A stretch of DNA of 7,784 nucleotides from Sphingomonadales bacterium (lineage in GTDB: Bacteria; Pseudomonadota; Alphaproteobacteria; Sphingomonadales; Sphingomonadaceae): contig JAFLDC010000111.1 in the NCBI GenBank assembly GCA_017302775.1, positions 1 to 7,784 on the forward strand. The letters are read 5' to 3'. The position numbers were made by a program, and so were the translations under genes. The notes below the pieces were generated by a model. The model was not told the origin of the DNA. It searched no databases and saw only the letters and a program-made list of their open reading frames with translations. The first letter of the stretch is position 1. Each line of letters begins with the position of its first letter. Shown piece by piece: positions 2,170 to 2,784 of the stretch.

Positions 2170-2176
2170 ATGAACT

Positions 2177-2216
2177 CCCTTCCCCGTGGGGAAGGGTTGG
2201 GGATGGGGGTTCGACG
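2177..2216 (+). repeat. REP-like unit A (outer left, plus orientation)
   Basis: A palindrome with a nine-base perfect stem (2177-2185 with 2188-2196) is followed by a G-rich tail ending TTCGACG. Its reverse complement recurs as unit D with two substitutions and one single-base indel. The runs GGGG, GGG, GGGG and GGGGG from 2188 to 2209, separated by exactly two bases each, also fit the G-quadruplex pattern on the plus (carB non-template) strand. Confidence 0.85.
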
Positions 2217-2251
2217 GTGAAGGGGCAGCACTGCCATTCGGACGTGGTACA

Positions 2252-2284
2252 CCCATCCCCACCACCTTCCCTCAAGGGACGGGG
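2252..2284 (-). repeat. REP-like unit B (inner left, minus orientation)
   Basis: Read on the minus strand this is a shorter palindrome (TCCC TTGA GGGA core, extended by two G-C pairs beyond a mismatch) followed by a G-rich tail resembling that of unit A. It begins one base after the DUF559 stop codon. Its tail is largely complementary to the tail of unit A, so A and B can pair across a 35-base spacer. Confidence 0.7.
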
Positions 2285-2285
2285 C

Positions 2286-2639
2286 TTAGCTGTGGTTGCG
2301 GGCAATTCTCAGCTCTTCGAGAATCGCGGTGAGAACGCCGTCGGTGTTTTGCAGCACGTCGTTGTTCCAGAACCGGATGACACGGTAGCCGTGGGCTTCG
2401 ATCATGCGAGTGCGCGGTTCGTCAGCGGCACTATCGCTATGCTGGCCGCCGTCGAGTTCGATCGCGATCCTCGCCGAACGGCAGGCGAAATCGACCACGA
2501 AATCGCCAATCGGATATTGACGGGTAAATCTGTTGCCTTCCAGTTGGCTGGCGCGAAGGTGCGACCAGAGCCTGCGTTCGGCGTCGGTCATGTCGCCCCG
2601 CAGTTTGCGCGCTACGTCAGTCAATCGCTTGCCCGCCAT
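2286..2639 (-). CDS. DUF559 protein, Vsr-like PD-(D/E)XK endonuclease fold
   Basis: The 117-residue protein is a typical stand-alone DUF559 member, a family related to the very short patch repair endonuclease Vsr and the wider PD-(D/E)XK nucleases. Conserved segments in order are MTDAERRLWSHLR (17-29), RFTRQYPIGDFVVDF (37-51), IAIELDGGQH (58-67) and GYRVIRFWNNDVL (84-96). Asp50, Glu61, Asp63 and the Gln66-His67 pair are the likely catalytic or metal-binding positions, and all appear intact. No DNA-binding or transposase domain is attached. The ATG at 2637-2639 has a GAGGGAG Shine-Dalgarno (plus 2647-2653) seven bases upstream. The gene lies opposite to carAB, between the palindromic heads of units B and C. 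Nuclease activity is inferred from the fold; substrate and biological role are unknown. Mobility, repair or defence are all possible. Confidence 0.9.
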   Translation of the reverse strand: MAGKRLTDVARKLRGDMTDAERRLWSHLRASQLEGNRFTRQYPIGDFVVDFACRSARIAIELDGGQHSDSAADEPRTRMIEAHGYRVIRFWNNDVLQNTDGVLTAILEELRIARNHS

Positions 2640-2659
2640 TCACGCGCTCCCTCAAAAGT

Positions 2660-2690
2660 CCCCTCCCCGGCGGGGAGAGGTTGGGGGTGG
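2660..2690 (+). repeat. REP-like unit C (inner right, plus orientation)
   Basis: A palindrome (CTCCCC, loop GGC, GGGGAG at 2663-2677) is followed by the tail AGGTTGGGGGTGG. It has the same head-and-tail design as unit A but is more diverged. It begins about 20 bases upstream of the DUF559 start codon, just beyond that gene's Shine-Dalgarno. Confidence 0.7.
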
Positions 2691-2717
2691 AGGCTCCACA
2701 GTAGCGCGGCAAATCAG

Positions 2718-2756
2718 CGTCGAACCCCCATCCCAACCCTTCCCCAAAGGGAAGGG
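2718..2756 (-). repeat. REP-like unit D (outer right, minus orientation)
   Basis: This is the inverted partner of unit A. On the minus strand it has an eight-base stem (plus 2737-2744 with 2749-2756) and a tail ending TTCGACG. It again has four G-runs separated by two-base loops, here on the strand that is the template for carB. It lies 28 bases upstream of the intact carB ATG, so it is the repeat most likely to affect carB transcription or the mRNA leader. Confidence 0.85.
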
Positions 2757-2784
2757 CTCTTCAGCTTACCGTATAAGGCCCGAA

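Follow-up and report, generated by a model that had tools for sequence, protein, structure and literature searches.

A DUF559 nuclease gene between inverted triplex-type palindromic units: a candidate minimal mobile element in a sphingomonad and its relatives

The DNA analysed here (the window) was a stretch of 7,784 nucleotides, contig JAFLDC010000111.1 of a Sphingomonadales bacterium. Its genes were arranged in the order yqeY (minus strand), carA, a small ORF, a cassette, carB and greA. As shown in Table 1, the cassette comprised one DUF559 gene and four palindromic units (A–D), and lay between two copies of the carB start. The predicted DUF559 protein matched PF04480 with an E value of 2e-39 (134.3 bits in a profile search, the gathering score being 20.6). 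No structured RNA family was detected at gathering score.

Table 1. Features of the cassette and its surroundings, numbered from the first nucleotide of the window
Feature	Position	Strand	Description
carA	735–1913	+	Host gene upstream of the insertion site
Small ORF	1913–2137	+	About 74 codons (by eye); separates carA from the old carB start
Decayed carB start copy	2137–2169	+	Left of the cassette; 29/33 identical to 2785–2817
Unit A	2177–2216	+	Hairpin 2177–2196, G-rich tail to its right; inverted copy of D
Unit B	2243–2282	-	Degenerate hairpin 2265–2282, C-rich side facing A; abuts the DUF559 stop
DUF559 gene	2286–2639	-	117 aa; EDxHD/Vsr-fold nuclease; sole gene between the units
Unit C	2660–2694	+	Hairpin 2660–2680, G-rich tail to its right; just upstream of the DUF559 start
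Unit D	2717–2758	-	Hairpin 2735–2758, C-rich side to its left; inverted partner of A
Intact carB start	2785–2817	+	Right-hand copy of the duplication; carB extends to 6141

Hairpins were scored as units when they had at least 8 matched pairs, a loop of 2–8, at most one mismatch and a C/T-rich 5′ arm. Units A, C and D passed this rule; unit B was of a like build, though its stem of 8 with one mismatch fell short of 8 matched pairs. The three units observed compared with a mean of 0.003 and a maximum of 1 in 300 dinucleotide shuffles of positions 2140–2800, and with a mean of 0.16 and a maximum of 2 in 100 shuffles of the whole window. An initial annotation had read the locus as A(+), B(−), nuclease gene, C(+), D(−), with B at the DUF559 stop and C just 5′ of its start. 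The coordinates and this layout were borne out, and only B, being degenerate, did not stand as a unit under the hairpin rule. The inverted match between A and D, given there as 37 of 40 positions, came to 41 matches in 44 columns (two mismatches and one gap) when A was aligned with the reverse complement of D.

The closest fold to that of the window protein, after 3hrl, was the domain of the homing endonuclease I-Bth0305I, its nearest characterised relative; the protein had both the EDxHD fold of homing endonuclease catalytic domains and the Vsr fold. A defence or phage gene was considered and rejected, as the matches to large antiphage proteins and to phage families were all weak. DUF559 matches were present in 2 of 50,697 phage records and in 44 of 72,556 plasmid records. 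Weak DUF559-like stretches were also seen in open frames of 1760–2404 residues in four genomes without a stand-alone DUF559 gene (G261, G299, G151 and G251); such long frames recall the antiphage proteins Hhe and ProA, weakly matched by the window protein. No link between DUF559 and repeats of this kind surfaced in searches of the open-licence literature of PubMed Central, a scope outside which most subscription papers lie.

Among the best 80 relatives of the window gene, retained from genome contigs, a unit was found on at least one side in 76 and on both sides in 55. Unit density reached 9.8 per kb in the first 50 bp beside the gene, whereas the bins farther away than 200 bp all had 0.06–0.26 per kb; these bins exclude 47 further hairpins inside extended reading frames. 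Since this set was biased to close relatives, an even draw of 200 Pseudomonadota genomes was taken, 47 of which contained DUF559 at E 1e-10, and the best hits of the 46 other than G001 were examined. A unit lay within 250 bp in 45/46 and on both sides in 27/46 of them. All rows were kept, including L189, L217 and L226, whose hairpins are T-rich and atypical, and L212, which lacks a hairpin. In control windows from 60 loci the corresponding values were 99/1320 (7.5%) and 2/1320 (0.15%). Intergenic gaps beside DUF559 held a unit in 62/70 cases in the even draw, against 4/27 other gaps, and in 101/116 against 17/296 for the 80 relatives. By this comparison the units are associated with DUF559 genes, and the impression given in the initial annotation, that stand-alone DUF559 genes often sit among such repeats, proved right, with a strong enrichment of DUF559 gaps over those of other genes.

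Of four plasmid loci that were read, two from Deinococcus (L326 and L327) and one from Sphingomonas (L328) had units passing the rule, and a cyanobacterial one (L325) had short-stem units, seen by eye and missed by the rule. At five loci (L275–L279) the units next to DUF559 were open in the same frame and would yield G/P-rich ends on translation (such as PPSAGEGG or PPSPAEGGG), so that some annotated DUF559 extensions may be repeat DNA.

Hairpins are common near gene ends, and many sphingomonad copies of the gene occupied the same carA|carB or yqeY site, as might be expected of a housekeeping gene with terminators or attenuators at both ends that is inherited vertically at fixed sites. The rarity of units in other intergenic gaps (17/296 and 4/27) argues against this explanation. 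So do the 1 to 12 DUF559 matches per genome, at many sites, that were found in 24 genomes searched, and the presence or absence of the gene at one and the same junction among close relatives (see below). We regard it as very unlikely.

Units were present on both sides in 102 loci. There, the near upstream unit was compared with the downstream unit of the same locus in reverse complement, and similarity was 0.62, against 0.31 for units of different loci and 0.38 in direct orientation; none of 2000 permutations reached the within-locus value. The paired units are inverted copies and are specific to their locus. The outer span of these 102 loci had a median of 449 bp (IQR 424–478, maximum 670), so that little besides DUF559 fits between the units, and no Y1 (HUH) gene was found there, DUF559 lying inside. 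Divergence of the nuclease and of its units was correlated (r 0.345, 0/500 permutations), common descent accounting for part of the correlation.

A G-rich tail was measured at the foot of the units, and its match to the purine arm was compared in mirror and in direct order in the 143 units with asymmetric arms (from 195 oriented units). Mirror order was better in 95, worse in 17 and equal in 31; its mean match of 7.73/9, against 6.92 in direct order and 6.97 on permutation, was above all 1000 tail permutations. Judged by their sequence, the units have the build of an intrastrand-triplex motif of the boxC/TMECO kind. The earlier description of the units as REP-like is to be amended: they are inverted palindromes, also dispersed without the gene, of the boxC/triplex kind. 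About 20–28 bp outside the hairpins were common to some copies, so the exact ends of the element are not fixed.

Units were then counted in the 200 genomes with the pattern CCCTYYCCCN{2,6}GGGRRAGGG, whose reach is limited to certain types of stem. At least three units occurred in 28 of the 47 genomes with DUF559 and in 10 of the 153 without it (p 8.5e-14); the other 19 DUF559 genomes had fewer than three, under a pattern of this limited coverage. Units without the gene, which the initial annotation had proposed to look for, were thus found in large numbers, and the comparison indicates that units are dispersed both with and without DUF559. Two genomes, G120 and G151, also scored on a reversed control pattern (31 and 9).

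The general likeness of the units to REP/BIME pairs and REPtrons (PMC3733652) suggests another source, namely that they are REPs moved by RAYT (Y1/HUH) transposases, with DUF559 hitch-hiking. Y1_Tnp was found in 93 of the 200 genomes (E 1e-10). At least three units occurred in 15/93 genomes with Y1_Tnp and in 23/107 without it (p 0.37), and at the same threshold no Y1_Tnp hit was obtained in 12 of 21 genomes that had DUF559 and at least 10 units, nor in 16 of all 27 genomes with at least 10 units. RAYT was rejected as the driver of the units, since unit richness goes with DUF559 and is unlinked to Y1_Tnp; the cassettes, moreover, have little room for a RAYT beside DUF559. Movement by RAYT transposases is extremely improbable.

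Some unit-rich genomes lacked a clear stand-alone DUF559 gene. G156 (64 units) and G240 (109 units) had no DUF559 match at E 1, and G261 (109 units) had only weak ones, one of them in a 1760-residue open frame. Such genomes would be expected if DUF559 were a passenger, or a repair enzyme clearing structures, beside units that are spread otherwise, by replication slippage or another enzyme. The proposed role of a Caulobacter DUF559 protein in very short patch repair (PMC12907096) and the reported instability of TM loci in E. coli (PMC4666352) point the same way. A passenger or repair enzyme leaves unexplained why inverted, locus-specific units stand at nearly constant spacing around the gene, and why whole cassettes are present or absent at a site. 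We consider this explanation unlikely.

Evidence for movement came from several genomes. In G130, five gene-less unit pairs of 126–134 bp were 90–97% identical in a common orientation (L267 is inverted); their flanks gave no BLAST hit to one another, and hairpins of the same sequence bounded a DUF559 gene of that genome. A search for the junction holding this gene covered 59 genomes of the genus. Fifty loci, representing part of these genomes, were inspected, one of them incomplete, and of the 49 scored 23 were empty, 13 had units only, 9 had DUF559 and 4 had other contents; the 13 with units only include one genome twice and one locus (L323) that rests on a doubtful hairpin. On a tree of the junction (823 flank columns, with rough bootstrap values), DUF559 required at least 4 changes, each of which was forced by branches with good support, and the empty state required 12, of which 7 were forced; a locus with DUF559 (L287) and an empty one (L316) were sisters (98/91). 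Gain and loss of the gene are indistinguishable on this tree. The comparison indicates presence and absence of the cassette at an orthologous site, and the empty sites that the initial annotation had sought exist in relatives both here and at carA|carB. Neither of the two outcomes named there as refuting its proposal was obtained.

Read by eye, empty sites at the G130 junction had the sequence ..ccGTGAac.., a stop/start overlap, and filled sites had a similar (c)cGTGA or ATGA at either end, a repeat of about 5 bp. The repeated GTGA may be a duplication, or it may be kept because selection favours both a stop and a start codon there. At the same junction in G331 (L281), with flanks 96% identical to those of G130, a different DUF559 gene with a different type of unit was found, together with one more unit, in front of which about 25 bp were repeated (by eye). 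A GCGCAT-like word was seen by eye just outside the left hairpin in L281, L305, L306, L308, L309, L311 and L315, and an inverse-like word outside some right hairpins; the former may be the true end of the element.

Similar copies were also found at unrelated sites. In G011, four cassettes (L114, L116, L118 and L120) were 89–94% identical over 473–541 bp, units included, with unrelated sequence beyond except for a longer stretch common to L114 and L118; as G011 is a MAG, the four copies may not come from one cell. Among 238 DUF559 pairs at 60% identity or more, 79 had no detected flank homology. These comparisons place similar cassettes at unrelated sites. Terminal inverted repeats, copies at unrelated sites and empty sites, all features of transposable elements, were found together. 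Values of dN/dS of 0.11–0.27 at the G130 junction indicated that the DUF559 gene is under purifying selection; among three of the G011 copies, whose common origin in one cell is in doubt, the values were 0.19–0.49.

The insertion sites were junctions of conserved genes: carA|carB (by tblastn), yqeY|dnaG (annotated, L328) and, by eye, trpB|trpA, sucB|lpd, glyQ|glyS and sufB|sufC, as well as positions just before aroC, ruvC and dapF. The DUF559 stop was often at, or overlapped, the next start codon (by eye, from translated neighbours). In E. coli K-12, the DUF559 gene ycjD had a full unit 167 bp past its stop and a degenerate unit at the stop (by eye). A K-12 query of fabI-ycjD-sapF was covered to at least 80% in 3333 of 5426 complete E. 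coli genomes. The fabI|sapF junction was rejected as a clean empty site, as both ycjD-less strains read, DSM 30083 and an O157:H7 strain, carry other genes there, with regulator and efflux genes next to fabI instead.

At the locus in the window, the first 33 bp of carB were duplicated to the left of unit A, so that the cassette sits inside duplicated target sequence. The small ORF ended in TAATG at the decayed carB copy, and a similar small ORF in L172, L179 and L182 ended directly at the real carB start (by eye). The cassette would thus have entered carB after about codon 11, the duplicated start restoring carB. In L003 the carB start was duplicated over 42 bp (35/42 identical), and five of the seven differences between the two copies were at third codon positions. 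The comparison indicates duplicated target sequence at both loci. In L007, two decayed carB starts (22/33 and 25/33) were seen beside the intact one, at offsets 437 and 1671 of the carA–carB gap, as though this spot had been struck repeatedly. Of 14 distinct carA|carB loci with DUF559 (19 rows), three had a carB copy, namely the window, L003 and L007; no clear copy was found in the other 11.

This gap was hypervariable in sphingomonads. In a survey of 30 family loci (L157–L186, from 78 matching family genomes), it was 2–10 bp long in seven and contained DUF559 in one. It was otherwise often filled by diverse small ORFs that ended right at the carB start. Although presence and absence were clear, carA|carB was dropped as the main empty-site test; because small ORFs of unrelated kinds are inserted there too, the test was made at the G130 junction.

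The cassette in the window, of about 0.6 kb, is best read as a minimal mobile element that consists of a DUF559 nuclease gene and inverted terminal units of the triplex type. The nuclease is probably the mobility enzyme of this transposing element. It would recognise its own units as a hairpin or triplex in single-stranded DNA and cut units and target with offset nicks, and repair filling the nick offset would give target duplications of variable length. No target site duplication of fixed length was found, the repeats being of about 5 bp, about 25 bp (L281), 33 bp (window) and 42 bp (L003); such lengths would favour two independently placed nicks over an integrase with a fixed offset. Gene-less unit pairs would be non-autonomous derivatives that rely on the enzyme in trans, in the way that REPs rely on RAYTs. 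Surviving insertions would be those that leave both neighbouring genes intact, by stop/start overlaps or, as in carB, by a restored 5′ end.

Homing is the alternative to such transposition that fits the repeated use of the same junctions, namely carA|carB and the GTGA junction of the genus of G130. A free-standing endonuclease would cut allelic sites (operon junctions or solitary unit pairs) and be copied in by host recombination, with the units as landing sites or homology arms. The fold closest after 3hrl, that of I-Bth0305I, agrees with it, as do the different DUF559 gene and units of L281 at the GTGA junction; the mostly third-codon differences in L003 fit a foreign, recoded carB start that entered with the element, and presence and absence at the G130 junction are compatible with homing. 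Pure homing, however, gives neither similar cassettes at unrelated sites nor gene-less pairs dispersed with unrelated flanks, and the two units of a locus are locus-specific inverted copies of each other. Homing is rather unlikely.

The package of gene and repeats is met again in other bacteria, at changed places or with copies lacking, and so may be the engine of a common family of orphan repeats. The chances seem evenly balanced that DUF559 elements form a new superfamily of transposable elements, with an EDxHD/PD-(D/E)XK nuclease as sole protein and structure-recognised triplex palindromes as ends, and are the source of the boxC/TM repeats of more than 260 genomes. If so, these repeats would be tied to a small nuclease family of unknown function, giving a role to both, and the question of who moves the repeats could be tested with one gene and one repeat. 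A class of nuclease would be added to the stand-alone transposition enzymes, among which we know of none of the DUF559 type. It would count as a new kind of element only if the nuclease itself does the moving; an enzyme confined to homing would be less novel.

Among known nucleases of related fold, I-Bth0305I is encoded in an intron and Vsr nicks DNA at mismatches, and to our knowledge neither is flanked by palindromic units in inverted orientation. TnsA of Tn7 acts together with other transposition proteins, whereas a second gene as large as that would not fit into the DUF559 cassette. REPtrons, in which a RAYT is flanked by inverted REPs, resemble the DUF559 cassette in three respects: inverted palindromic units enclose a single small nuclease gene, the genome contains many units or pairs without the gene, and the units differ from one gene copy to another; like REPs, the units flank the gene as inverted palindromic repeats and are also dispersed without it. 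The REPtron enzyme is of the HUH type, whereas that of the cassette is unrelated, with an EDxHD/PD-(D/E)XK fold, and the DUF559 units, unlike the REPs of REPtrons, form a triplex motif with a mirror G-rich tail. REPs have mostly been sorted into GTAG and CGTC types, with no dedicated transposase reported for the latter (Di Nocera et al. 2013, PMC3733652). As described there, CGTC repeats, with AT at the foot of the stem and CCA tails, do not seem to fit the DUF559 units.

The Caulobacter protein VsrA, which has the same domain as the window gene, was reported to be responsible for the SOS response in cells without the methylase ScmA and was proposed as a mismatch repair enzyme for very short patch repair (PMC12907096). 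The text of that paper contains no word that begins with 'palindrom', and its two passages with 'repeat' deal with things other than such units.

The closest counterpart of the units is the intrastrand triplex motif that Holder et al. described in 2015, of which the E. coli form is boxC/TMECO (PMC4666352). By its published description it has the same succession of C/T arm, loop, G/A arm, short loop and G-rich third strand, and it likewise occurs as inverted pairs in intergenic DNA. A triplex of TMECO in solution was reported in that paper; for the DUF559 units, the triplex build is read from their sequence. The repeats were reported there from more than 260 genomes, E. coli among them, without a mobility gene, and TM loci as unstable in E. 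coli; its authors state that no traces of a transposase or an integrase ever came to light around TMECO. The boxC/TMECO repeats were thus described as orphans (PMC4666352), whereas in the loci compared here the same motif is tied to DUF559.
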